Positions 32,932 to 47,120 of a stretch of 64,000 bases of DNA are shown piece by piece. Each line of letters opens with the position of its first letter. The stretch's first letter is position 1. A model generated the notes under the pieces. That model did no database searches and was not told the origin of the DNA. It saw nothing but the letters and a program-made list of their open reading frames with translations. Source of the stretch: Azonexus sp. R2A61 (GTDB lineage Bacteria > Pseudomonadota > Gammaproteobacteria > Burkholderiales > Rhodocyclaceae); assembly GCF_021401135.1 (NCBI RefSeq), contig NZ_JACBFO010000006.1, positions 62,001 through 126,000 on the forward strand, given 5' to 3'. The translations under genes were made by a program, and so were the position numbers.

Positions 32932-33924
32932 ATGTCGCGTGCAACGATGACCGAGTTCACTCCCTCAGACTTGAAAACCATCCTGCATTCCAAACGGGCC
33001 AATCTCTATTACCTTGAGCACTGTCGGGTTCTGGTCAATGGCGGTCGCGTCGAATACGTGACCGACGAAGGGTCGCGTTCCATGTATTGGAACATCCCCA
33101 TCGCCAACACCACGTCGATCATGCTCGGCACGGGTACCTCCATCACGCAGGCCGCCATGCGCGAATTGGCCAAGGCGGGCGTGATGGTTGGCTTCTGCGG
33201 GGGCGGCGGGACGCCCTTGTTCAGCGCCAACGAAATCGATGTCGAAGTGGCCTGGTTTTCACCGCAGAGCGAATATCGCCCAACTGAATATCTACAGGCT
33301 TGGGTTCGTTTCTGGTTTGACAATGCAAAGCGTCTCGAAGCTGCCAAAGCCTTTCAACAGGTTCGTCTCGACTTTATCGCCAAACAGTGGACCAACAATC
33401 GGCAGTTGTCTGATGCCGGTTTTCAGGTCGATGCTCATGTCTTGCTCAATGCATTGGACTCGTCGCGCCAGCACGTTGAAGCCGCAATCGACAATACCGC
33501 CTTGCTGACCGAAGAGGCGCGGCTGACCAAGCATCTCTTCAAGCTGGCGGTCAACGCCGTCGGCTACGGTGAATTCACGCGCGCCAAGCGCGGTGGCGGC
33601 ACCGATCCGGCCAATCGTTTCCTCGATCACGGCAACTATCTCGCCTACGGCCTCGGGGCGACGGCGACCTGGGTGCTCGGTCTGCCGCACGGGCTGGCGA
33701 TCCTGCACGGCAAGACGCGGCGTGGCGGACTGGTCTTCGATGTCGCCGATTTGATCAAGGATGCGCTGGTTCTGCCGCAAGCCTTCATCTCGGCCATGCG
33801 CGGCGACGATGAGCAGACTTTCCGCCAGGGTTGCATCGAACGCTTTACCCAGACCGAGGCGCTCGATTTCGCCATCGATACGATCAAGGTCGTTGCCCTC
33901 AATACGGGGGCAGCCGAGTCATGA
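32932..33924 (+). CDS. cas1: CRISPR-associated endonuclease Cas1, subtype I-F
   Basis: 330 residues; a second ATG at 32947 (MTEFTPSDLKTIL) may be the true start, since I-F Cas1 proteins typically open with that segment. Hallmarks are HSKRANLYYLEHCRVLV, MYWNIPIANTTSIMLGTGTS, RFLDHGNYLAYGLGATATW and ILHGKTRRGGLVFDVADLIK, which holds the metal-binding His and Asp. With the Cas2 domain of Cas2-3 it integrates new spacers. Its TGA overlaps the cas3 ATG (ATGA). Confidence 0.96.
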   Translation: MSRATMTEFTPSDLKTILHSKRANLYYLEHCRVLVNGGRVEYVTDEGSRSMYWNIPIANTTSIMLGTGTSITQAAMRELAKAGVMVGFCGGGGTPLFSANEIDVEVAWFSPQSEYRPTEYLQAWVRFWFDNAKRLEAAKAFQQVRLDFIAKQWTNNRQLSDAGFQVDAHVLLNALDSSRQHVEAAIDNTALLTEEARLTKHLFKLAVNAVGYGEFTRAKRGGGTDPANRFLDHGNYLAYGLGATATWVLGLPHGLAILHGKTRRGGLVFDVADLIKDALVLPQAFISAMRGDDEQTFRQGCIERFTQTEALDFAIDTIKVVALNTGAAES

Positions 33925-36900
33925 ACATCATGCTGATTTCCCAGTGCAGCAAGAATGCGCTGGTCGAAACCCGGCGCATTCTCGACCAGTTCGCCGAGCG
34001 GCGCGGCGAACGGACGTGGCAGACGGCGATTACCCAAAATGGCCTGGATACCTTGCGCCGTCTGCTGCGCCAGACCGCCCGCAAGAACACGGCGGTAGCC
34101 TGCCACTGGATACGCGGCAAGGACCACAGCGAACTGATCTGGATCGTCGGCGATGCCCGCCAATTCAACGAACGCGGTGCCACGCCGACCAATACCACCA
34201 GCCGCGACATCCTGCGCGCCAACGATGAAAACGACTGGCACAGCGCCGAAGTGATCCGCCTGCTCGCGAGTATTGCCGCGCTGTTCCACGACTTCGGCAA
34301 GGCCAGCGAAGCTTTTCAGGCCAAACTAAAAAGCAGCAAACCCCTGGCCGATGCCTATCGCCATGAATGGGTTTCGCTGCGCCTGTTCGAAGCCTTCGTA
34401 AATGGCGATGACGATGCCGACTGGTTGGCGCGGCTGGTCGATCTTCCTGATGGCGCGGCCAAGGAAGTCGAGTCCCGCCTGCTCAAGGACGGCCTCAGCA
34501 TCAGCAACATCAAGACGCCGTTTGCCACCTTGCCGCCCCTGGCGCAGGTCGTCGGCTGGCTCATCGTCAGCCATCACCGCATGCCGACGCCGGAAACCCT
34601 GCATCACAAGGCGCTGGTTCATCTGCCCGCCAATATCGAAGCCAACTGGTGCGGCGCTCGCGAAGGCGTCAGTCAAAAGGAGATTGCCGCCTGCTGGCAT
34701 TTCCCCAAGGGCTTGCCGCTGACCAGCAAGCACTGGCGCAAGCATGCGGGCAGAGTGGCGTCGGCCTTGCTGCAACAACTGGAGCGTGAGCCGCGCGACT
34801 GGCGCCGGGAGGCTTACGTCTTGCACCTTTCCCGCATGGCGCTGATGTTGTCCGATCACTACTATTCCAGCGAACCGAGCCACGAGCGCTACGGCGACAA
34901 GGTCGGCAAGAAGGATGCGGTCTACGCCAACACCGACCGCAAAACCGGCCAACTCAAACAACGCCTCGACGAACACCTGATCGGCGTAGAGGTGAACGCC
35001 AGCCGAGTCGTGCGGACTTTGCCCCGCTTGGCAGCACAACTGCCGCGCCTGGCCCGTCACAAGGGGTTTCGCGAACGCAGCAAGGACGCCTTTGCCTGGC
35101 AGAACCGCGCCTTCGACCTGGCCGAAGGCCTGCGCGCTCGTTCAGCGGAGCAGGGCTTTTTCGGCATCAACATGGCGTCGACCGGCTGCGGCAAGACGCT
35201 GGCGAACGGCCGCATTCTCTATGCATTGGCGGATTCGGGGCGCGGGGCGCGGTTCACCGTTGCCCTCGGTTTGCGCACGCTGACCTTGCAAACCGGCGAT
35301 GCCTATCGCGACCGCCTGCGTCTCGGTAGCGACGAAATGGCCGTGCTGGTCGGCGGTGCCGCCGTGCGGGCGCTGCATGAGCAGCAACAGGCCGAAGCCC
35401 GTCTGCAGGCCAAGGGCTCGGAATCCAGCGCCGAACTGCTGCCCGAATACAACCAGGTTTTCTACGACGGCAGCCTGGAGGATGGCCCGCTGAACCGCTG
35501 GCTGGGCGAAAACCAGCCAGCCAGCAAATTGCTCAACGCGCCCATCCTGGTGTGCACCATCGACCACCTGATGCCCGCCACCGAAGGCACGCGCGGCGGT
35601 CACCAGATTCCGCCCATGCTGCGCCTGATGAGTTCCGATTTGGTGCTCGACGAGCCGGACGATTTCGGCATGGAGGACCTGCCGGCGCTCAGCCGTCTGG
35701 TGCATTGGGCCGGCATGCTGGGCAGCCGGGTCTTGCTCTCTTCGGCCACCTTGCCGCCAGCGCTGATCGAAGGCCTGTTTCAGGCCTATCTGGCCGGACG
35801 GCAACAGTTTCAACAGCATCGTGGTCGGCCCGGCCAGCCGCTCAATGTCTGCTGCGCCTGGTTTGATGAATTCTCGGCGGTGGCTTCCGAGCACGGTGCT
35901 GCCGAAACTTACCGTGCCGAGCACCAGAATTTCGTGCAGAAACGCCTGGCTCGGCTGGTGCGCGCCGACGCGCGGCGACACGCCGAAATCCTGCCGTTGC
36001 CGATTGCCCAGGCCAAGCGCGAAATCGTCTGTGCCGAATTGGCGCAAGCCCTGCGGCCGCAAATGAGCCGCTTGCACCAGTTGAATGGCACGGTCGACCT
36101 GGCCAGCGGCAAGAAAATCAGTTTTGGCCTGGTGCGCTTCGCCAACATCAATCCGCTGGTTGCCGTGGCGCGGGAGTTGATCCGCCTCGGTGCCGAGAAC
36201 GATCAGCGTATCCACCTGTGCGTCTACCACTCGCGGCACCCGCTGCTGGTGCGCTCGGCCATCGAAAATCGACTGGATCGCCTGCTCAACCGAAAACAGC
36301 CGCAAGCCGTCTTTGCCGCGCCGGAAATCCAGCAGGCGCTTGCCGCCGGCCCGGAAGCCGACCACCTCTTCATCGTTCTCGCCACCGCCGTTGCCGAAGT
36401 CGGGCGCGATCATGACTATGACTGGGCGATTGTCGAACCCTCGTCGATGCGCTCGATCATCCAGTTGGCCGGACGGGTGCGCCGGCACCGGCCGGAAGCC
36501 TACACGCCCACCAACTTGTTGCTGCTCGACGCCAACATCCAGCACCTGACCACCGGCATGAGCCAGCCGGCCTTCCTGCGCCCCGGCTTTGAATCGTCCA
36601 ATCCCGCGGCCAAGAACTTCCGCCTTCTGAGCCATCGTCTGGCCGAACTGCTGACGCCGGAGCAACTGAAAAACATCGACGCTTCCAGCCGTATTCGCGA
36701 GCGCGATGCGCTTAACCCGACCGGAAATCTGGTCGATCTTGAACATGCCCGCTTGTGCGAACTGATGCAGGCGGCGGCGTCCGGACAAACGCCGCTCAGC
36801 CTGCCTGTGCCCTTGTGGTGGACGACCGGTGCGCATCTCAGCGGCTACCTGCAGCGCCGCGATCCCTTCCGCCAGGACAAGCTGGGCCGACAACGCTACG

Positions 36901-37205
36901 GCCTGCTCCCGGACGAGGACGGGGAGATTGGTTTCTATCGCTTTGGCGATGACGGCAAGCCGGTTGCGGTCGACCACCTCCTGCATCGAGTTTTCTTGGA
37001 GCCAGGGTCTGGCGTCAGTTTTTGGGGAGAGGAGGATTACGCGGCAGCGCTGGCGAGTCTGGCCGAGCGCCGAGATATGGAACTGCGCGAATGCGCGGAG
37101 AAATTCGGCGGACTCGACTTGCCGTTGAAGTCTGTTGAGGATGGGCAGCGCGTGGACGAAGAGTGGGGGTATCACGCAGTCTTGGGACTTTGGCGGGAGA
37201 AATAA
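33921..37205 (+). CDS. cas3: Cas2-Cas3 fusion helicase-nuclease, subtype I-F
   Basis: 1094 residues. Residues 1-95 are the Cas2-like domain (NIMLISQCSKNALVETRRIL) typical of I-F. An HD nuclease domain follows with LFHDFGKAS near residue 122. The SF2 helicase has Walker A STGCGKT near 420, a DExD-type box DEPDDFG near 575, SATLPP near 607 and a motif VI-like LAGRVRRHR near 850. The C-terminal part (to 1094) is the usual accessory domain. It degrades DNA marked by the Csy complex and joins Cas1 in adaptation. No truncation or missing motif is seen. Confidence 0.95.
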   Translation: MNIMLISQCSKNALVETRRILDQFAERRGERTWQTAITQNGLDTLRRLLRQTARKNTAVACHWIRGKDHSELIWIVGDARQFNERGATPTNTTSRDILRANDENDWHSAEVIRLLASIAALFHDFGKASEAFQAKLKSSKPLADAYRHEWVSLRLFEAFVNGDDDADWLARLVDLPDGAAKEVESRLLKDGLSISNIKTPFATLPPLAQVVGWLIVSHHRMPTPETLHHKALVHLPANIEANWCGAREGVSQKEIAACWHFPKGLPLTSKHWRKHAGRVASALLQQLEREPRDWRREAYVLHLSRMALMLSDHYYSSEPSHERYGDKVGKKDAVYANTDRKTGQLKQRLDEHLIGVEVNASRVVRTLPRLAAQLPRLARHKGFRERSKDAFAWQNRAFDLAEGLRARSAEQGFFGINMASTGCGKTLANGRILYALADSGRGARFTVALGLRTLTLQTGDAYRDRLRLGSDEMAVLVGGAAVRALHEQQQAEARLQAKGSESSAELLPEYNQVFYDGSLEDGPLNRWLGENQPASKLLNAPILVCTIDHLMPATEGTRGGHQIPPMLRLMSSDLVLDEPDDFGMEDLPALSRLVHWAGMLGSRVLLSSATLPPALIEGLFQAYLAGRQQFQQHRGRPGQPLNVCCAWFDEFSAVASEHGAAETYRAEHQNFVQKRLARLVRADARRHAEILPLPIAQAKREIVCAELAQALRPQMSRLHQLNGTVDLASGKKISFGLVRFANINPLVAVARELIRLGAENDQRIHLCVYHSRHPLLVRSAIENRLDRLLNRKQPQAVFAAPEIQQALAAGPEADHLFIVLATAVAEVGRDHDYDWAIVEPSSMRSIIQLAGRVRRHRPEAYTPTNLLLLDANIQHLTTGMSQPAFLRPGFESSNPAAKNFRLLSHRLAELLTPEQLKNIDASSRIRERDALNPTGNLVDLEHARLCELMQAAASGQTPLSLPVPLWWTTGAHLSGYLQRRDPFRQDKLGRQRYGLLPDEDGEIGFYRFGDDGKPVAVDHLLHRVFLEPGSGVSFWGEEDYAAALASLAERRDMELRECAEKFGGLDLPLKSVEDGQRVDEEWGYHAVLGLWREK

Positions 37206-37226
37206 AAACGGGGCGCTTGGCCCCGT
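37199..37226 (-). terminator. Intrinsic terminator for leftward transcription from the cas3-csy1 gap
   Basis: ACGGGGC / GCCCCGT (7 bp, loop of 5). Read leftwards it is followed by TTTTTATTT; read rightwards it has only A residues. It therefore terminates the minus-strand mini-CRISPR transcript, and its T-run overlaps the cas3 stop. Confidence 0.7.
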
Positions 37227-37232
37227 AAAAAA

Positions 37233-37304
37233 CTGCCTATCCGGCAGTGTGCGTAGCCCTAATTTGGAAACTACTTTTTCTAAGCTGCTTGTTCAGCAGT
37301 GTGC
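37233..37304 (-). CRISPR. Leftward one-spacer mini-CRISPR with two degenerate repeats (crRNA-like RNA)
   Basis: On the minus strand, 37304-37277 is a 28-nt repeat variant sharing 20 of 28 bases with the main-array repeat. It keeps the 8-nt handle as CTTAGAAA and the Cas6f hairpin with a compensatory change (CTGCT-GAACA-AGCAG instead of CTGCC-GGATA-GGCAG). A 24-nt spacer follows (37276-37253). The second repeat (37252-37233) is identical to the array repeat over CACTGCCGGATAGGCAG but then runs into TTTTTT, so its hairpin can also act as a terminator. The spacer is 8 nt shorter than in the array. It should be processed by Cas6f into a short crRNA. Confidence 0.85.
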
Positions 37305-37347
37305 GGATTGTCTCAGGTTGTAAAGGATTTAGCCTAAAGAAATTATG

Positions 37348-37373
37348 TTAGCCATAAATTGAAAACTACTTGG
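37348..37373 (-). promoter_or_regulatory. Self-target (protospacer plus 5'-CC PAM) of the mini-CRISPR spacer
   Basis: Read on the minus strand, CC at 37373-37372 precedes a 24-nt stretch (37371-37348) matching the mini-CRISPR spacer at 20 of 24 positions. The first nine seed bases match perfectly; mismatches are at 10, 14, 18 and 24. Positions 18 and 24 are among the every-sixth bases flipped out in I-F complexes. CC is the I-F PAM. A -10-like CATAAT (minus strand, 37347-37342) for the mini-CRISPR itself adjoins the site. Confidence 0.85.
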
Positions 37374-37402
37374 TTTACATCTGTGGCGGTTTCTTCTACA
37401 TT
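37374..37402 (+). promoter_or_regulatory. Predicted sigma70 promoter of the csy operon
   Basis: TTTACA (37374-37379) and TACATT (37397-37402) are separated by exactly 17 bp. The -35 box directly abuts the PAM of the self-target, so a bound Csy complex would block it. Transcription would start near 37409, giving an unusually long leader of about 210 nt before csy1. Confidence 0.6.
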
Positions 37403-37413
37403 GCGATTTGGGT

Positions 37414-37447
37414 GAGTTGGGGACGACCTGCCAGTCGTCCCCAACTC
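37414..37447 (+). other. Perfect 14-bp hairpin at the 5' end of the predicted csy leader
   Basis: GAGTTGGGGACGAC and GTCGTCCCCAACTC flank a 6-nt loop (CTGCCA). No T-run follows, so it is not a terminator. It would form within a few bases of the predicted transcript start, as a 5' stabiliser, RNA toxin element or protein-binding site. Confidence 0.75.
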
Positions 37448-37512
37448 GGTGCAAAAACCATCTCTTGGTCGAGCCCAATCGCAGGGTCAGTTGCGTTAAG
37501 GAGGGGAATTCG

Positions 37513-37560
37513 GTGCGTAGCAACCATCACGCCTTATTAGGCGTTCCGGCCCCCCAGTGA
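37513..37560 (+). CDS. Possible 15-codon mini-ORF with strong Shine-Dalgarno and tandem TTA codons
   Basis: AAGGAGGGG (37498-37506) lies 6 bases before GTG at 37513, by far the best ribosome-binding site in the leader, yet csy1 starts 109 bases later. The frame encodes 15 residues (VRSNHHALLGVPAPQ) and has two consecutive TTA leucine codons, which are rare in the GC-rich genes around it. The stop falls inside the following hairpin. It may be a leader peptide or a CreT-like tRNA-sequestering mini-ORF. No homology can be claimed. Confidence 0.35.
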   Translation: MRSNHHALLGVPAPQ

Positions 37561-37574
37561 TTTTTGCTGGGGGG
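37550..37574 (+). other. Hairpin in the csy leader
   Basis: CCCCCCAG / CTGGGGGG, perfect 8-bp stem, 9-nt loop with five T residues inside it. It overlaps the stop of the mini-ORF and ends 48 bases before the csy1 GTG. No T-run follows. Confidence 0.65.
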
Positions 37575-37621
37575 CATTGTACGGCAGTCCTTGTTTTTAT
37601 CCCATGAAGGAGAACGCGCTT

Positions 37622-38932
37622 GTGAACATGACTTCCAATAGCCCGCCAGGTGCGGATAGTGTCAAACAGGTAATCCTTTCATTTCTGCAAGAGCGCCTCC
37701 TGCCCAAGCTGGAAAAGCTCAAGCCGGAAGAGGATGAGCAGCGGCAAGCATTGCTGCAGGATTACCTGCCGGCAAACTGGATTCCCGATGCCGCCCGGCG
37801 GGTTGGGCAGATTCAGCAAGTCACCCATGCCCTCAAATTTACCCATCCCGATGCGCGCGGTTCCAGTCTGAGCGTTGCCGGCAATCCGGCGGTCGGTGAG
37901 GAAATCGTCGGCACGCATACGGTGGCCCAGCGCTTGGCGCCGGATGTGGTTGGCAATGCTGCGGCGCTGGATGTGTATAAATTTCTCCGCCTTTCGGTGG
38001 GCGGAAAAACCATTCTGGAGCTTGCTGCAACGGCTGATCCTGCTCTGGCTGCTGCGTTTTCCGATGATGCCGATCTGGCGAAAACCTGGATGGCGGCATT
38101 CGCATCGCTGACCGAAGCCAAGGGACAGCCGGCTTCCAACAAGCTCGCCAAGCAGGTGTATTGGCCGATTGAAGGCCAAAACTACCATCTACTCGCCCCC
38201 TTGTTCCCGACCTCGCTGGTGCACGGCTTGTGGAAGCGAATCCGCGAGGATCGCTTTTCTGACGAGGCCAAGGCGGCGCGGGAGGCGAGACGCAACGGGC
38301 TTGCCCATCCGCACGGTTATTGCGAATACCCGAATGTGGCGATTCAGAACTTCGGGGGCACCAAACCGCAGAACATCAGCCAACTGAACAGTGAGCGCTA
38401 TGGGGAGAACTACCTCCTGCCTTCGCTGCCGCCGAGTTGGATATCAGCCGAGGTTCGCGCACCGCTGGCGGTGAACAGCGTTTTTGATGGCATTTTCGGT
38501 GGGCGGAAACAGGTTGATGAACTTGTTATAGCCCTACAGAAATTTCTAGTCAGCGTCGAGCATGCCGGGACCAACATCCGCATCCGCGACAAGCGGGCCG
38601 AGCTGGCCGGCTTGATCCGCGACGAGGCGTTGCAATACGCCGCCGAGTTGCGGCAACTGGAACCGGGCTGGAGCGCGTCGCCCGAATGCCTGCTCAATAG
38701 CGCCGAGCAATGCTGGCTGGACCCGGAGCGTACCGAGCTGGACGCCGATTTCGCCAGCCTGCGGCAACGTGGCGATTGGCAGGACGAAATCTGCCGGCGC
38801 TTCGGCAACTGGCTGAATGCCCGCCTGACCACTCCTAACACACCGATGGGCGCGATTGAAGCGGCGCATTGGCGCGATGTTCTGGACGAGGAAATGCGCT
38901 TGATGCGCGATGAGGTGGCCGACGATGAGTGA
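37622..38932 (+). CDS. csy1: Type I-F Cas8f (Csy1)
   Basis: 436 residues from GTG 37622, which has AAGGAG nine bases upstream; an ATG at 37628 is an alternative, and an ATG at 37604 lies before the ribosome-binding site. Family features include FLQERLLPKLEKLK at the N-terminus, NPAVGEEIVGTHTV, DVVGNAAALDVYKFL, RNGLAHPHGYCEYPNVAIQN and FGGTKPQNISQLNSERYG. Csy1 is the large subunit that reads the PAM and clamps target DNA in the Csy surveillance complex. Its 3' end overlaps csy2 by 8 bases. Confidence 0.94.
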   Translation: MNMTSNSPPGADSVKQVILSFLQERLLPKLEKLKPEEDEQRQALLQDYLPANWIPDAARRVGQIQQVTHALKFTHPDARGSSLSVAGNPAVGEEIVGTHTVAQRLAPDVVGNAAALDVYKFLRLSVGGKTILELAATADPALAAAFSDDADLAKTWMAAFASLTEAKGQPASNKLAKQVYWPIEGQNYHLLAPLFPTSLVHGLWKRIREDRFSDEAKAAREARRNGLAHPHGYCEYPNVAIQNFGGTKPQNISQLNSERYGENYLLPSLPPSWISAEVRAPLAVNSVFDGIFGGRKQVDELVIALQKFLVSVEHAGTNIRIRDKRAELAGLIRDEALQYAAELRQLEPGWSASPECLLNSAEQCWLDPERTELDADFASLRQRGDWQDEICRRFGNWLNARLTTPNTPMGAIEAAHWRDVLDEEMRLMRDEVADDE

Positions 38933-39902
38933 TGTCTTTGCTTTGGTTCTGTTGCCGCATCTCAGGGTGCAGAATGCCAACGCCATCTCCGGGCCGTTGA
39001 CCTGGGGTTTCCCTTCGCCGACTGCCTTTGCCGGGTTTGCGCATGCGCTGGAACGCAAGTTCGCGGCGGAGCTGAATGAAGGCTTTGCCGGGGTGGGGAT
39101 CATCTGCCACCATTTCGAACCGCAGGTCTTTCAACCGCCGGGGCGTCGTACCCAGGTGTTCCGCTTGACCCGCAATCCGGTCGGCAAAGACGGCGGCACG
39201 CAGGCTTTGGTCGAAGAAGGCCGCGCCCACATGGAAGTCAGCCTGGTTATTGCCGTCAGAGACTACAAGTCCGAAGGCGACGGCAAAGAACTGGCCGAGC
39301 GGCTGCACCACGCCGCCCAGGGCATGCGCCTAGCTGGCGGCAGTCTGCTGCATCAGGAGGGGAAACGCTATCAGGCCCAATGGTGGCCGCTGGCCGGCGA
39401 TATCGAGGGCGACGCCAGGATATTCCGCCGCCTGCGCCGTCGCCTGTTGCCGGGTTTTGCCCTGGTTCAGCGGGACGACTTGCTGGCTGGTCATCTGGCG
39501 GAAATGCGGGCGACACAGCCGGATAGCAACGCCCTTGACGCTTTGCTCGATCTTTCGCGGCTCAACATCGAGCCGGTTGTCAGCCAAGCGGACGAGGCTG
39601 GTGCGCCAGTGAAATGGGAAATCCGCCGCAAGCCCGGCTGGCTGGTGCCATTGCCCATCGGCTACGCCGGCATTTCACCGCTCTATGCGCCGGGCGAGGT
39701 GGAAAATGCCCGCGATGGCGCCACGCCTTTCCGTTTTGTCGAAAGTCTTTACTCGCTGGGTGAGTGGGTCAGTCCGCATCGGCTCGATGATTTGAGCCAA
39801 TTGCTGTGGACGCAGGAGACCGACGCAGCCAACGGCATTTATCGCTGCATCAATCGCTATTCCGAATCGCTTGATAATTTCAAGGAGCAACAAAATGGCT
39901 AA
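38925..39902 (+). CDS. csy2: Type I-F Cas5f (Csy2)
   Basis: 325 residues from ATG 38925 inside the csy1 tail. The RAMP fold begins with [20 protein letters not shown] and [18 protein letters not shown], and ends with [19 protein letters not shown]. It binds the crRNA 5' handle and pairs with Csy1 at the complex tail. It overlaps csy3 by 8 bases, consistent with coupled translation of complex subunits. Confidence 0.94.
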
Positions 39903-40929
39903 AACCGACCTGAAAACCGCTTCCGTCCTCGCTTTTGAACGCAAGCTCGATCCTTCCGACGCGCTTTTCAGTGCTGGAAAATGGGTTGACCGTAGTACGG
40001 GAGAAAAATGGGTGCCTGTCACCGTGCGCGAAAAATCCGTGCGCGGCACGATCTCCAATCGGCTTGCTACCAAGGACCAGGACCCGGCCAAGCTTGATGC
40101 TTCGATCCAGTCGCCGAATTTGCAGACGGTTGATGTGGCCACCTTGCCCAACGACGCCGATACGCTGCGCGTGCGCTTCACCCTGCGCATCCTGGGCGGC
40201 GCCGGTACGCCCTCCGCCTGCAACAACGCCGATTACCAGATCAAGCTGCAAGGTACGGTGCAGCAATACGCCAAGGAGGTCGGCTTTGCCGAACTGGCGC
40301 GGCGTTACGCCAGCAATCTGACCAACGGCCGTTTCCTTTGGCGCAACCGGATGGGGGCGGAACAGATCGAAGTCCAGGTTCGCCAACTGGCACAGGGCGA
40401 AGCTGCGCAAAGCTGGTCTTTCGACGCGCTGAATTTTTCGCTGCGCGATTTTTCCTCCGATAGCCCGGCCTTGGGTGAACTGGCCAAGGTGATCGAGCTG
40501 GGACTGGCCGGGCAAGCGCACGCCTTGCTGGAAGTCGTTGCCTATGTGCGGATGGGCGACGGCCAGGAGGTCTATCCCTCGCAGGAGCTGATTCTCGACC
40601 GGGGCGACAAGAAAGGCCAAAAGAGCAAGACGCTTTATGTGGTGGGAAACGTGGCTGGCATCCATAGCCAGAAGATCGGTAACGCCTTGCGCACCATCGA
40701 TACCTGGTATCCGGCGGATGAAGAGAACGGGAGCATCGGCCCGATTGCGGTGGAACCGTATGGCTCGGTGACGTCGCAAGGCAAGGCCTACCGCCAGCCG
40801 AAACAGAAGGCCGATTTCTACAATCTGCTCGACGAATGGGTCCTGAAAGACCGGGCGCCGGAAGCGGGCAACCAGCATTACGTGATGGCAACCCTGATCC
40901 GTGGCGGTGTCTTCGGCGAAAAGGACTAA
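39895..40929 (+). CDS. csy3: Type I-F Cas7f backbone (Csy3)
   Basis: 344 residues; AAGGAG precedes ATG 39895. Recognisable segments are [62 protein letters not shown] and RGGVFGEKD at the C-terminus. Multiple copies coat the crRNA spacer and form the backbone of the Csy complex. It lies 3 bases before cas6f. Confidence 0.95.
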
Positions 40930-40932
40930 GGC

Positions 40933-41496
40933 ATGGATTCCTATATCGAACTCCAACTTTTGCCGGACCCGGAGTTTCCCGCCAACATGCTGATGAATGC
41001 GTTGTTCGCCAAGCTGCACCGGGGTTTGGTCAGCAGCGGGGAAGGGCGGGTCGGGGTCAGTTTTCCCGATGTCGAGCATAAAGGTGTCGGTCTGGGAGCG
41101 CGACTGCGCCTGCATGGGACGGCGCCTGATCTTGAGCATTTGATGGCGGCGAACTGGCTGCAAGGGATGCGCGATCATCTTTCCTGTAGCCCGGTCAGTC
41201 TGGTCCCTGCGAACGCAGCCTACCGAATAGTGCGGCGCGTGCAGGCCAAAAGCAGCCCGGAACGGGAGCGGCGGCGCTTGATTGCACGTAAGGGAATCAG
41301 CGCCGAGGCAGCAGTTCAGGCGATTCCTGATAGCGCCGCCGAGATGCTTCGCTTGCCTTACGTACTACTCACCAGCCAAAGCACGGAACAGCAGTTCCGC
41401 TTGTTTATCGAGCATCTTCCTGTGCAGAAAGAAGCTGTGGGGGGAGCGTTTAGCGCTTACGGGCTGAGTTCAACCGCGACTGTGCCGTGGTTTTAG
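40933..41496 (+). CDS. cas6f: CRISPR repeat endoribonuclease Cas6f (Csy4)
   Basis: 187 residues. The catalytic His is at position 29 (AKLHRGL), exactly as in Csy4. The arginine-rich helix that grips the repeat hairpin is RRVQAKSSPERERRRLIAR. The C-terminus ends with the typical YGLS...TVPWF. It cuts each repeat 3' of the CTGCC-GGATA-GGCAG hairpin and stays bound to the crRNA 3' end. It should also process the degenerate repeats in the cas3-csy1 gap, whose stem pairing is kept. Confidence 0.95.
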   Translation: MDSYIELQLLPDPEFPANMLMNALFAKLHRGLVSSGEGRVGVSFPDVEHKGVGLGARLRLHGTAPDLEHLMAANWLQGMRDHLSCSPVSLVPANAAYRIVRRVQAKSSPERERRRLIARKGISAEAAVQAIPDSAAEMLRLPYVLLTSQSTEQQFRLFIEHLPVQKEAVGGAFSAYGLSSTATVPWF

Positions 41497-41625: not shown

Positions 41626-44600
41626 CTTCACTGCCGGATAGGCAGCTCAGAAAAAGAGGCGTTTCTTGTCAGTGCCGCCAATGGTCTTCACTGCCGGATA
41701 GGCAGCTCAGAAACATCACCTAAGCGTTATGCGTCTTCATGCCGGCTTCACTGCCGGATAGGCAGCTCAGAAATATTTTCCAGTTCAGTGCGTTCATTTG
41801 CAGCCCTTCACTGCCGGATAGGCAGCTCAGAAAGCGAAAGCGTGATTTTCCACTCTCATTGCGAGCTTCACTGCCGGATAGGCAGCTCAGAAAGAACCCG
41901 GTCGGGAAAAAGATCAGCTCGTACGCTTCACTGCCGGATAGGCAGCTCAGAAATGGACGAAGGCCGTGGTAGCCAGTTGGGTGCTCTTCACTGCCGGATA
42001 GGCAGCTCAGAAATTCGACGATCTTGGCGATGTCGTTGGCGGTGCCTTCACTGCCGGATAGGCAGCTCAGAAAATGCTCAAGTTTTCGATGGACACACTG
42101 GGATTGCTTCACTGCCGGATAGGCAGCTCAGAAAATCTTGAGCAGGTCGCAGGGTTCGATCACGGCCTTCACTGCCGGATAGGCAGCTCAGAAAATGTCG
42201 GCGGTGCCGGCGATGCGCTTCATGACCTTCACTGCCGGATAGGCAGCTCAGAAAATTTGCCGGGCGACGCCCAGCATGGCGGTTTCCTTCACTGCCGGAT
42301 AGGCAGCTCAGAAAAGCCGGCGCGGGATACGCTGCTGCAGCCGTACCTTCACTGCCGGATAGGCAGCTCAGAAATACAAGATCCGCCATATCTACGGCGG
42401 CGCGGTCTTCACTGCCGGATAGGCAGCTCAGAAAGCACCCGTCAGCCCAGACAAATCAAGGCCCGTCTTCACTGCCGGATAGGCAGCTCAGAAACCGAGG
42501 AGAAAGCAGCATGAACCGTCCCTCCCCTTCACTGCCGGATAGGCAGCTCAGAAAGGATCAGGGTGGTGACTTCGTTGCTGTTGAGGCTTCACTGCCGGAT
42601 AGGCAGCTCAGAAACAGCCAGGCGGCCGCCCGATGCTTTTTATTGGCTTCACTGCCGGATAGGCAGCTCAGAAAGCTACGCCCGACGTTCCGTCGTTGAA
42701 GTATTCCTTCACTGCCGGATAGGCAGCTCAGAAAATCGATCATCAACACCGGCGCGCCCATCATTTCTTCACTGCCGGATAGGCAGCTCAGAAAAGGCCC
42801 ACGTCATCGTTGCGGATGGCCTCCATCTTCACTGCCGGATAGGCAGCTCAGAAAAGGTGTGCAGCGGCACCTCATCACCATCGATCCTTCACTGCCGGAT
42901 AGGCAGCTCAGAAACTGACGGGCGTCGCCTCATGGCCGGCGTTATCCTTCACTGCCGGATAGGCAGCTCAGAAAATCAGTAGGCCGCGCTCTGCGCCGAT
43001 TGATACCTTCACTGCCGGATAGGCAGCTCAGAAATCGATGAACCAGTTGGACGGCAATTGAAACGGCTTCACTGCCGGATAGGCAGCTCAGAAAAGCGGA
43101 TTAATAGTTATCCATTTCCATTCCCGCTTCACTGCCGGATAGGCAGCTCAGAAAGCAGCAATATCAAGCGCGGCATGTTCAATCGTCTTCACTGCCGGAT
43201 AGGCAGCTCAGAAAATGACACGCGACCAGGTCAGTCCCGTGATCTCCTTCACTGCCGGATAGGCAGCTCAGAAAGCCTCGAAGTTGCCTGCGATCACGTC
43301 GTTCAGCTTCACTGCCGGATAGGCAGCTCAGAAAGCCAGACTTTTGTTTTGCACCAGCAAATATCGCTTCACTGCCGGATAGGCAGCTCAGAAAGCGAGC
43401 CTTCGACCTGGGCGGGATTGTCGGGGCTTCACTGCCGGATAGGCAGCTCAGAAAAGGGTCGCCATACGGGCAGCCGGTGATGACTTCTTCACTGCCGGAT
43501 AGGCAGCTCAGAAAATACAGCCGCGAATAACCACCCTCGTCGGCCGCTTCACTGCCGGATAGGCAGCTCAGAAAATGCGGCCCCTGCCGCACCCGTCAGC
43601 CCAGACCTTCACTGCCGGATAGGCAGCTCAGAAAGTCAGCGATCAGCACAAGAATCAGCCAGGCAGCTTCACTGCCGGATAGGCAGCTCAGAAAAATCTG
43701 CGGACGGCACGCGCGCGGAGCGCGTTCTTCACTGCCGGATAGGCAGCTCAGAAAAGGTCCTGCGACGCCGGCGAGAAGTCCGACAACTTCACTGCCGGAT
43801 AGGCAGCTCAGAAAATCGCGCTCAGCGCTTTCCCCGGCGGCGAGCTCTTCACTGCCGGATAGGCAGCTCAGAAATGATACGACCGACTTCACCTCGACCT
43901 TGAGTTCTTCACTGCCGGATAGGCAGCTCAGAAAGTCGCGCCGGCGACACGCATCGCCTCAACCTCCTTCACTGCCGGATAGGCAGCTCAGAAACGATCA
44001 CTCTCCCGGCATCGACCCCCGCGCCGTCTTCACTGCCGGATAGGCAGCTCAGAAAAAAGCGCAGCGCCTTGCTCACGCGCTGGCCAACCTTCACTGCCGG
44101 ATAGGCAGCTCAGAAACGGCGCGCGGACACCGGCGATCAGCACGCGATCTTCACTGCCGGATAGGCAGCTCAGAAACGGGTCCATCATCAAATGCAGCGG
44201 CACACCGTCTTCACTGCCGGATAGGCAGCTCAGAAAAATCTGCAGAGGAGATCCTGGCAGAAGCTGCTGCTTCACTGCCGGATAGGCAGCTCAGAAATAC
44301 TTCGACTGCCGCCGCACCAAGCGCAACAGCTTCACTGCCGGATAGGCAGCTCAGAAATTGATGAAACCTAGCCGGCACTTCGTTTGATGCTTCACTGCCG
44401 GATAGGCAGCTCAGAAAAATCGTCGCTCATGCCAGGTAGTCGACCGTCACTTCACTGCCGGATAGGCAGCTCAGAAAAACATGCAGAGCAAGCGCTTCCG
44501 CGAAGGCCTCCTTCACTGCCGGATAGGCAGCTCAGAAACACTGCGAGCCGACGACCGATGGCCTGCTGCACTTCACTGCCGGATAGGCAGCTCAGAAAAG

Positions 44601-47120
44601 TCGATGCTAGCCGGCACGCGCGCCGGGCGACTTCACTGCCGGATAGGCAGCTCAGAAAAGGTGGGACGGCCAAGGGCTCCGGCACCGGCGCTTCACTGCC
44701 GGATAGGCAGCTCAGAAAAAGACGCACAACGCTTAGCTGTGCGGACTGCGCTTCACTGCCGGATAGGCAGCTCAGAAATGGCGTAACCGACACACCACCC
44801 CGCGACCGCGCTTCACTGCCGGATAGGCAGCTCAGAAAGCCTGCACATTGCGCCGCCGGCCGGCAAGCGCCTTCACTGCCGGATAGGCAGCTCAGAAAAC
44901 TGATCCTGGCGAGTCCGTCCGTGCCGGCTGCTTCACTGCCGGATAGGCAGCTCAGAAAGACGTGTGGGACAGCTATCTCCACGTCGAGCACTTCACTGCC
45001 GGATAGGCAGCTCAGAAAAGCAGTGCCGAGAATTGATGAATACGATCCGGCTTCACTGCCGGATAGGCAGCTCAGAAATTGTAGATGGGAAGATGGGTAT
45101 GGGTGGCCATCTTCACTGCCGGATAGGCAGCTCAGAAAGCATCCGTCACCCGCAGCGTGATCTGATCATCCTTCACTGCCGGATAGGCAGCTCAGAAAGT
45201 TCCGCGCGACGCTGCCGCTGTCTGTGACAACTTCACTGCCGGATAGGCAGCTCAGAAAAGGCGACGGCAATTCGATCCCAGAAGCCAAGGCTTCACTGCC
45301 GGATAGGCAGCTCAGAAAAGATGCTGTCGATTTTCCGCCTGCCGGCAGTATCTTCACTGCCGGATAGGCAGCTCAGAAAGGAACTGACTGGCTACGAGGC
45401 GCTGGAACAGCCTTCACTGCCGGATAGGCAGCTCAGAAACGATGCAGCTCGGCCCGCTTTAGATTAGCGGGCTTCACTGCCGGATAGGCAGCTCAGAAAA
45501 GACCAGTTCACCGGTCGTGAGCTGAGCAGTCCTTCACTGCCGGATAGGCAGCTCAGAAAAATCTGCGGACGGCACGAGCGCGGAGCTCGTTCTTCACTGC
45601 CGGATAGGCAGCTCAGAAATGATGCAGATGGACACCGCCGCCCTCACCGTCCTTCACTGCCGGATAGGCAGCTCAGAAAACCAGGCCGATGACGGCGGTG
45701 GCGACGGTGCGCTTCACTGCCGGATAGGCAGCTCAGAAAGGTGACGCCCTGGACCGGGACGTTGGAGAGCGCTTCACTGCCGGATAGGCAGCTCAGAAAT
45801 CGGTCGCCTTGACGTTTGCGTCATATGAGGTCTTCACTGCCGGATAGGCAGCTCAGAAATGATGCTGTCGACTTTCCGCCTGCTGGTTCGCCTTCACTGC
45901 CGGATAGGCAGCTCAGAAAACTGGCGATCCGGTCGATCCAGCCGTTCCGCGCTTCACTGCCGGATAGGCAGCTCAGAAATCGAAAGCGCCCCCACTGCCG
46001 GTCATCGGCAACTTCACTGCCGGATAGGCAGCTCAGAAATGCCGGGACGGTTACCAGGAGCGCATCGCGGCCTTCACTGCCGGATAGGCAGCTCAGAAAT
46101 CCGAAGCAGCGGTCACGTAATCGATGACCTCCTTCACTGCCGGATAGGCAGCTCAGAAAGCCGTCGAAGTCCAGCGCCCCGCCGTCACCGACTTCACTGC
46201 CGGATAGGCAGCTCAGAAAATTGCCCACGAAACTTTCGACTACGCAACGACCTTCACTGCCGGATAGGCAGCTCAGAAAGGCAACTTCGAAGCGGCGGTG
46301 AGGAAGTGCGCCTTCACTGCCGGATAGGCAGCTCAGAAAGCTCGGCGCTGCGACAAATGCGGCCGGCGACCCTTCACTGCCGGATAGGCAGCTCAGAAAT
46401 CGATGTACTTGTTGTTTGCGTTGAATACCGCCTTCACTGCCGGATAGGCAGCTCAGAAATTGCGGATCAGGTCGCGGATGTATTCGCCGAACTTCACTGC
46501 CGGATAGGCAGCTCAGAAAGGAACCGTTGGCGAACTGGTAGCCGGTGTCCTCTTCACTGCCGGATAGGCAGCTCAGAAAGACCTCGACGGCTGGGCGTCG
46601 ACGGCGCTGAACTTCACTGCCGGATAGGCAGCTCAGAAAGACCTCGAGAACATTCCGCCGGCCGAGATCGACTTCACTGCCGGATAGGCAGCTCAGAAAA
46701 ATGTAGTTGGCGTCCGTGGTCCCTTGCGACCCTTCACTGCCTGATAGGCAGCTCAGAAAGTGAAGAAAAGCTTCGCCTGGCCGCGTCATTCCTTCACTGC
46801 CGGATAAGCAGCTCAGAAATGGAGAAGACCGGGCGGCGCACGGACGACAGCCTTCACTGCCGGATAGGCAGCTCAGAAAGGGACGGCCCGAAGCGGGAGC
46901 GGGAAGCCTTCCCTTCACTGCCGGATAGGCAGCTCAGAAAGAACTGCCGGTCACCGCTTCCGCCGCCGCCGGCTTCACTGCCGGATAGGCAGCTCAGAAA
47001 TTCCAGGCGCGCGAATTCTGCAGGCGCTGCCTCTTCACTGCCGGATAGGCAGCTCAGAAATGGCAGTACAACGATGGCGCCGATCTACACGACTTCACTG
47101 CCGGATAGGCAGCTCAGAAA
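41626..47120 (+). CRISPR. Type I-F CRISPR array, 92 repeats and 91 spacers
   Basis: Repeat of 28 nt beginning CTTCACTGCC and ending GCTCAGAAA, with the hairpin CTGCC-GGATA-GGCAG and the 8-nt handle CTCAGAAA. Spacing is 60 nt, giving 32-nt spacers; seven spacers are 33 nt (period shifts at about 42.1, 44.0, 44.1, 44.3, 44.5, 45.3 and 46.9 kb). Counting the first (41626) and last (47093) repeats gives 92. Repeats 86 and 87 each carry one substitution. Orientation is the same as the csy genes. Short open frames across the array arise because 60 is a multiple of 3. Confidence 0.98.
46732..46819 (+). repeat. Two variant repeats near the trailer end of the array
   Basis: Repeat 86 (46732-46759) has G to T in the hairpin loop (base 46742). 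Repeat 87 (46792-46819) has G to A in the stem (base 46807). Decay at this end and its absence elsewhere place the oldest spacers here. Confidence 0.85.

Follow-up and report, generated by a model that had tools for sequence, protein, structure and literature searches.

The closest described systems are the type I-F CreTA modules of Acinetobacter, in which creT kills and is repressed by CreA-Csy; 19 further modules were found by hand, and the cas3-csy1 region of A. baumannii AYE is without a module (PMC10097628). Toxicity in WCHA45 was attributed to a start-codon hairpin and a Shine-Dalgarno (SD) sequence acting on ribosomes, and only synonymous changes at codons 2, 3 and 5 are named there as abolishing it (PMC10097628); this speaks against an explanation of the WCHA45 toxin by tRNA sequestration alone. 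The creT of plasmid LoGeW2-3 was described there as toxic too (PMC10097628), and by our own reading it contains an 11-codon ORF, ATG TTT AGC ACA CAT TTA GTT AGA AGG GTC TAG. For haloarchaea, CreT mini-ORFs have been described that sequester rare tRNAs, through AGA-AGA in H. hispanica and AUA-AUA in H. hubeiense (PMC8501985). CreR (Liu et al. 2023) is presented in review passages as a cas-regulating RNA (PMC12737573, PMC13131331, PMC12948488), generally without a coupled toxin gene (PMC12737573); one passage names autorepression for types I-B, I-E and V-A (PMC13131331) and another for type I and V-A in general (PMC12737573). Our literature search, to which the CreR work was known via reviews, found no published case of a UUA-codon CreT. 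Shmakov et al. 2023 may describe I-F regulatory elements.

The locus compared here with these systems lies in a window of 64,000 nt of Azonexus sp. R2A61, corresponding to C10:62001-126000 of a 3.73-Mb genome in 13 contigs. Pfam annotations identified a complete type I-F set on the plus strand, comprising cas1 (32932-33924), cas2-3 (33831-37205), csy1 (37628-38932, with a GTG at 37622 as alternative start), csy2 (38910-39902), csy3 (39871-40929) and cas6f (40933-41496). The main CRISPR array (41626-47120, plus strand) has 92 repeats and, as the original prediction had counted, 91 spacers, several of which match a resident prophage. The nearest named csy1 loci belong to Azonexus fungiphilus and another Rhodocyclales genome (Csy1 92%). 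The intergenic region between cas2-3 and csy1, with cas1 and cas2-3 upstream of it, is the subject of this analysis; a plasmid search found nothing similar to it.

Two degenerate repeats form a mini-CRISPR on the minus strand of this region, within the cas locus. Pseudo-repeat 1 (37277-37304, 20/28 to the array repeat) supplies the 5' handle CTTAGAAA, the 24-nt guide or creA spacer follows at 37253-37276, and pseudo-repeat 2 (37225-37252, 19/28) supplies the 3' hairpin handle and leads into the T tract of a terminator-like hairpin (37208-37226), the predicted end of the transcript. Rfam CRISPR-DR4 scored 30.5 bits (E 6.2e-5) against the first repeat and 17.5 bits against the second, both below its curated gathering threshold of 35; sub-threshold matches at the locus to the sRNA families Spot_42 and Bp1_781 were taken as chance. 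A CATAAT had been proposed as the -10 box of the mini-CRISPR, and its letters are indeed present (37339-37347, minus strand), although the promoter scan did not call them and this role is unproven.

The guide fits a site at 37348-37371 (minus strand) at 20 of 24 positions, with a 5'-CC PAM at 37373-37372. This pairing is as predicted: positions 1-9 are perfect, and two of the four mismatches, 18 and 24, are positions flipped out in I-F complexes. The other two mismatches fall at positions 10 and 14. The real match covers 18/20 non-flipped positions, against a best of 16/20 in 1000 dinucleotide shuffles of the intergenic region, so that 0/1000 reached it. The next best PAM-flanked site for the guide within the 64-kb window reached 12/20, and in the 3.73-Mb genome the combination of CC and the 9-nt seed is limited to two places, the target and C6:437038.

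The target adjoins a divergent promoter, again as foreseen: the TTTACA of a TTTACA-N17-TACATT promoter (37374-37402, plus strand) starts directly behind the PAM. It was the sole sigma-70-like site called by the promoter scan in 37180-37680, and no second promoter-like site was called in that interval before csy1; shuffled sequences average 0.4 sites, so the scan by itself is weak evidence. The next gene is csy1, 226 nt from the -10 box, behind a predicted creT-like RNA and a hairpin. With start and end placed by inference, this RNA spans 37409-37575 (plus strand); it aligns with four other loci, and its fold lies 5.2 s.d. below shuffles (z = -5.2). It contains a 5' hairpin of 14 perfect pairs (37414-37447), a strong SD, TTAAGGAGGGG, at 37496-37506, a mini-ORF of 16 codons including the stop at 37513-37560 (GTG CGT AGC AAC CAT CAC GCC TTA TTA GGC ... 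TGA), and a GC-rich 3' hairpin at 37550-37574, which has no U tract and was not called as a canonical terminator by the scan. Only about 50 nt separate this hairpin from csy1. Codons 8-9 of the mini-ORF are a tandem TTA, the rarest sense codon in the 13 long frames of the window, not all confirmed as genes (6/7274 codons); its absence from all six cas genes (0/2763 codons) is not significant given this overall rarity. In E. coli TTA is a common codon.

This anatomy closely resembles that of the Acinetobacter modules WCHA45, LoGeW2-3 and ANC3789: a cas3-csy1 region of about 400 bp in which the elements have the same position and orientation, two pseudo-repeats, a short guide, a CC-PAM target, and a divergent small RNA with an SD and a mini-ORF (PMC10097628). 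The LoGeW2-3 ORF itself resembles that of the window, with AGA AGG at codons 8-9. However, the window mini-ORF starts with GTG, has TTA TTA rather than AGA AGG and is longer (16 vs 11 codons with the stop), and its target abuts the -35 box, whereas that of WCHA45 lies downstream of the start site (PMC10097628). Two consecutive rare codons in a mini-ORF and repression by a crRNA-like guide also recall the haloarchaeal CreTA, a likeness drawn from its description; its hosts are haloarchaea and no leucine (UUA) version appears in the part of that work considered here (PMC8501985). Because the promoter, the structured RNA, the strong SD and the mini-ORF with tandem TTA match the layout of Acinetobacter I-F CreTA (PMC10097628), we consider the cas2-3/csy1 intergenic region most likely to be a type I-F CreTA module, that is, a type VIII toxin-antitoxin with a Csy-repressed RNA toxin.

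The module would work as follows. The minus-strand creA gene, with its own terminator and presumably its own promoter, would be transcribed and processed by Cas6f into a short crRNA-like guide, predicted to measure about 52 nt (8 + 24 + 20). Loaded with this guide, Csy would bind its PAM-flanked target immediately in front of the -35 box and block the rightward promoter. This promoter would otherwise produce creT, a structured RNA in which a strong ribosome-binding site precedes a GUG mini-ORF containing two UUA codons. Free creT would probably stop growth by engaging both initiating ribosomes and tRNA-Leu(UAA), a rare tRNA, and it would be set free by the loss or blockade of Csy. Read-through from this promoter probably supplies csy1-csy4 as well, since the scan gave csy no promoter of its own and a U tract is missing at the 3' hairpin; the switch would then double as a csy feedback.

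To compare the locus with its relatives, csy1 loci were collected from 9 of 100 relatives' genomes, 21 of 399 genomes in the order and 32 of 369 in the class, together with 36 loci of named genomes, these sets overlapping. The resulting 91 csy1 upstream regions reduced to 82 distinct ones, of which the 47 with a gap of at least 100 nt were scanned for mini-CRISPRs; those left out were 34 whose gap was below 100 nt and a single one that had no upstream frame. A mini-CRISPR with its own PAM-flanked target was present in 20 of the 82 regions (17 pairs found by script; L031, L032 and L033 by eye). The guides are mutually unrelated in sequence, yet identity to their own region at non-flipped positions averaged 0.91 and was at least 0.8 in 19/20 cases, as opposed to a mean of 0.56 for the 380 cross-pairs of guides with other regions, one of which was at 0.8; the lowest own pairing (0.73, L010) lies inside the cross-pair range. 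Positions 1-5 carried no mismatch in any of the 20 pairs. Mismatch rates at positions 6 and 12 were 13/20 and 14/20, but the search score skipped positions 6, 12 and 18, so these rates only show positions left unconstrained and the informative feature is the low rate elsewhere. In addition, the -35 box of the best promoter began 0-2 nt after the PAM in 12/19 loci, compared with 2.7% of random control positions (L066, with its target on the other strand, was omitted, and L055 has two equally good target sites). The comparative fit and the PAM/-35 geometry are strong sequence-level evidence for Csy-guided repression of the surveyed promoters. A further repeat pair, in L023, encloses a 32-nt spacer that fits no target there, and was treated as the end of an ordinary array.

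Two layouts could be distinguished among the 20 loci. The long layout, found in 11 including the window, places the target 221-535 nt from csy1, with a 5' hairpin, an SD and a mini-ORF in between and, in most of them, a GC-rich hairpin. In the short layout of six loci (L021, L031, L033, L036, L063 and L122) only 25-77 nt, free of any SD-led mini-ORF, separate the target from csy1; these are probably type I-F CreR, candidates for csy autorepression in other genomes. L066, L106 and L112 cannot be clearly assigned to either layout. L036 also has two identical 20-nt spacers between three repeats in its cas3-csy1 region, and in L112 an open frame (MNKKYVKEE...) follows the target, possibly a protein instead of creT. 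Four same-genus relatives are without the module, their cas2-3 and csy1 being 38-42 nt apart, which suggests that it is gained or lost as a whole, as in Acinetobacter.

Tandem rare codons were identified in 9 of the 11 long-layout loci (TTA TTA in four, TTA ATA in one and AGA AGA in four), at codons 8-9 in seven of the nine. Our script, looking for pairs drawn from TTA, AGA, AGG, ATA and CTA, found one in 8/20 loci; it skipped L097, whose frame exceeded its limit and whose ORF was read by eye. The mini-ORFs of L097 (GTG TTC GGC ACA CAT CGC GCC TTA TTA) and L035 (GTG TTC GGC AAG CAT CAC GCC AGA AGA GTG TAA) both align with that of the window, as does the LoGeW2-3 ORF. The codon used is mostly rare locally across the loci, as judged from small samples of 634-2740 codons; in L035, for example, TTA is common (19/1853 codons) and the ORF uses AGA AGA, AGA being the rarest codon there. 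L105 and L100 use AGA although TTA is equally rare or rarer there. The remaining two long loci are L101, with TCA ATA, TCA not being rare there (8/1127) though TTA is absent, and L100, an interrupted copy with a stop before AGA AGA. Vitreoscilla pVF1 is an AGA AGA member with the pair at codons 9-10, and ANC 7970 has no clear rare-codon pair.

How the toxin would act is the point on which the strongest competing explanation differs. A CreTA module whose toxicity comes from a start-codon hairpin and the SD acting on ribosomes, rather than from tRNA sequestration, is rather unlikely but deserves weight, as this is the mechanism published for WCHA45 (PMC10097628), and a hairpin over the start codon is kept in the five-sequence consensus fold. 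This consensus comprises 31 pairs, 13 of which show one or more double changes; the covariation term (+1.43) weighs slightly against it. In the minimum-energy fold of the window RNA, by contrast, the SD region pairs with the ORF start and the WCHA45 start-codon hairpin does not appear; position 4/12 of such a hairpin would be C-C in the window and would not pair. The paired minor codons of the window mini-ORF, with tandem rare codons near the same place in 9/11 loci, also point the other way, towards the tRNA-sequestering kind known from the AGA-AGA and AUA-AUA CreT of haloarchaea (PMC8501985).

The original prediction had read the locus as autorepression of csy. In its plain CreR form this would mean a csy promoter, an ordinary leader and a guide that only sets Csy levels. 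The window does share with CreR, as portrayed in the review passages, a mini-CRISPR guide of limited complementarity, here at a promoter that may serve cas genes (PMC12737573, PMC13131331, PMC12948488), and the comparative evidence bears out a Csy-guided repressor of the promoter. Since no canonical terminator stands behind the mini-ORF, the creT-like RNA could be just a csy leader; no other promoter-like site or U-tract terminator precedes csy1, and the six short-layout sister loci do without an SD-led mini-ORF. Against this, some 170 nt of structured RNA, containing an SD, a mini-ORF and a 3' hairpin, lie between promoter and csy1, so that the reading of this promoter as simply that of csy finds no support, and this leader has a conserved architecture and a mini-ORF like that of the published toxic RNA. 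Whereas CreR generally has no coupled toxin, the window has a putative one. We accordingly regard plain autorepression as improbable here. The primary target is likelier to be the RNA toxin, with csy repression only secondary, by read-through. The csy genes are probably transcribed either from the promoter at 37374-37402 or from one upstream of cas1; if from the former, the switch sets Csy levels, and the predicted feedback survives as a second function. That the switch also senses anti-CRISPRs or competing crRNAs is plausible by analogy with the passages of CreR and CreTA reviews.

Two weaker explanations can be treated briefly. The order of SD, TTA TTA mini-ORF and GC hairpin before csy1 would also suit a transcription attenuator, in which tandem rare codons of a leader peptide sense charged tRNA and let the polymerase into csy, but the encoded residue varies among relatives (Leu, Arg, Ile and Ser) and the hairpin of the window is without a U tract, and we consider this very unlikely. 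A chance similarity or the relic of a decayed CRISPR array, to which the degeneracy of the pseudo-repeats (20/28 and 19/28) might point, can practically be dismissed, because none of the 1000 shuffles matched the real pairing and fitting guide-target pairs of unrelated sequence recur in 20 of the 82 csy1 upstream regions. Among all these explanations, a CreTA module remains the one that we favour.

The same genome holds a second set of short guides, in a prophage. This short-spacer I-F array (C6:57857-58100; L013:9858-10100), with five repeats and four guides A-D, lies between a Sie-like moron gene and an AcrIF24 homologue (L013:10404-11126; PDB 7elm, E 9.8e-48; 41% to LESphi3 AcrIF24), some 390 nt downstream of the AcrIF24 gene. 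Genes for a phage methylase, portal, terminase and tail are its neighbours, and the label "P2-like" for this prophage comes from this gene content. Guide D (AAGTAGTTTCCGACTTAAGTC) has the same 9-nt seed and fits the window target at 16/21 (P 5e-5 by shuffling, with 21 known sites compared), although it is not an unbiased draw, the array having been found through its resemblance to the mini-CRISPR of the window. Its first 11 bases are identical to those of the chromosomal guide, including the mismatch at position 10. Searches of the host genome with 17 fixed bases and at most 3 mismatches gave no other site for guide A and one 3-mismatch site for guide B; guide C has three sites, one at C8:159428 with 2 mismatches, including one within the seed, and two with 3 mismatches. 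In 76 same-genus genomes guide B had one other match, in a cyclase-like gene with PAM CA, which was rejected, and it had none in viral contigs. A separate 15/20 match, at L013:10250 in a prophage frame, was left as probable chance. Phage contig L144 carries the same AcrIF24 neighbour (82%) and three related guides, one being identical to guide B over the 20 nt compared except at positions 6 and 19.

Spacers of the main array target this P2-like prophage itself (L124, C6:67901-87800), in and near its tape-measure gene. Matches with a CC PAM are sp7 (31/32), sp69 (29/32) and sp9 (28/32), and those with other PAMs are sp10 (32/32, AC), sp48 (33/33, CT) and sp68 (28/32, CG). Given this self-targeting, a live system would require some anti-CRISPR activity in the cell. 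Like the prophage array, the RNA anti-CRISPRs termed Racr are phage-borne I-F repeat units beside acr genes, but Racrs are solitary repeats (PMC10651486), whereas the phage arrays found here have 2-5 repeats and guides of about 14-26 nt, one with a host site. The prophage array, with five repeats and four guides, was thus not classed as a Racr, whose repeat is solitary and spacerless.

Other phages carry comparable arrays. Short-spacer I-F arrays were detected on 35 IMG/VR contigs, some of them near-identical, and 11 of the 35 have a nearby AcrIF24 homologue. The reverse search, with an alignment of array-linked AcrIF24 members and LESphi3 as query, gave 17 AcrIF24-family loci; 15 have an array, with the first repeat 30-414 nt downstream. 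The array scan had already picked up ten of the 17 contigs, and five of the seven others have an array; the exceptions without an array, L204 and L205, are the most divergent or partial AcrIF24 loci. In the Pseudomonas phages LESphi3 (L164) and IME307 (L165), acrIF24 or its homologue is followed by a promoter-like stretch, a repeat, the 18-nt guide TAATGCTTCTTGTGATGC, a repeat and a terminator-like hairpin, and the phage records carry no annotation for this mini-CRISPR. A different pattern, used in an earlier viral scan, matched 6 contigs, among them L093, a real mini-CRISPR without a known target. The viral array L139 was dropped, as its "guide" was a repeat. No published description of acrIF24-linked guide arrays was found in our literature search.

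Targets for these mobile guides are scarce. The viral guide of L132 and L142 (TAGTTATTTATATTT) matches the creT target of Oryzomicrobium L032 at 14/15, and 2 of 42 mobile guides, several of them from near-identical phages, reached 0.8, against 0.08 expected from shuffles (P 0.005). Since the searches with the other mobile guides gave no convincing target, including a comparison of 40-odd guides with 23 I-F loci, only guide D and perhaps that of L132/L142 can be said to have one. The best mobile-guide match (0.87) sits where cas3 should be and is, by estimate, about what the number of trials would give; matches of the LESphi3 guide to eight AT-rich viral contigs were chance-like, seven of them in open frames of at least 330 codons. 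Another guide family had no matches in viral contigs, and a search for cis targets of the viral arrays gave none.

On this basis we tentatively suggest, as a possibility somewhat short of even, that acrIF24 phages carry, behind acrIF24, genes for one to four short I-F guides which load host Csy and aim it at the CreTA or csy promoter, either replacing the antitoxin guide or shutting off csy. Such a substitution would allow a phage to use an anti-CRISPR without releasing the guard toxin, and guide D looks as if it might have been captured from a creA gene. However, guide D is the only one with a target in its own host, the searches with the others having given none, and phage guides might be kept out of Csy by AcrIF24 itself.

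In conclusion, the sequence comparisons give good support to the view that the element in the window is a CreTA with a TTA codon pair that is new as far as searched and with a promoter-abutting target. The range of I-F CreTA would thereby extend beyond Acinetobacter, to Rhodocyclales and other beta- and gamma-proteobacteria, and some of the non-Acinetobacter loci surveyed here may be among the 19 further modules of the Acinetobacter paper. A leucine-codon version of CreT is predicted, and members may be searched for by three marks: a match of the guide to its own region, a -35 box adjoining the PAM, and a pair of mostly rare codons near codons 8-9. The acrIF24-linked arrays of phages such as LESphi3 offer a place to test phage guides against the CRISPR guard.
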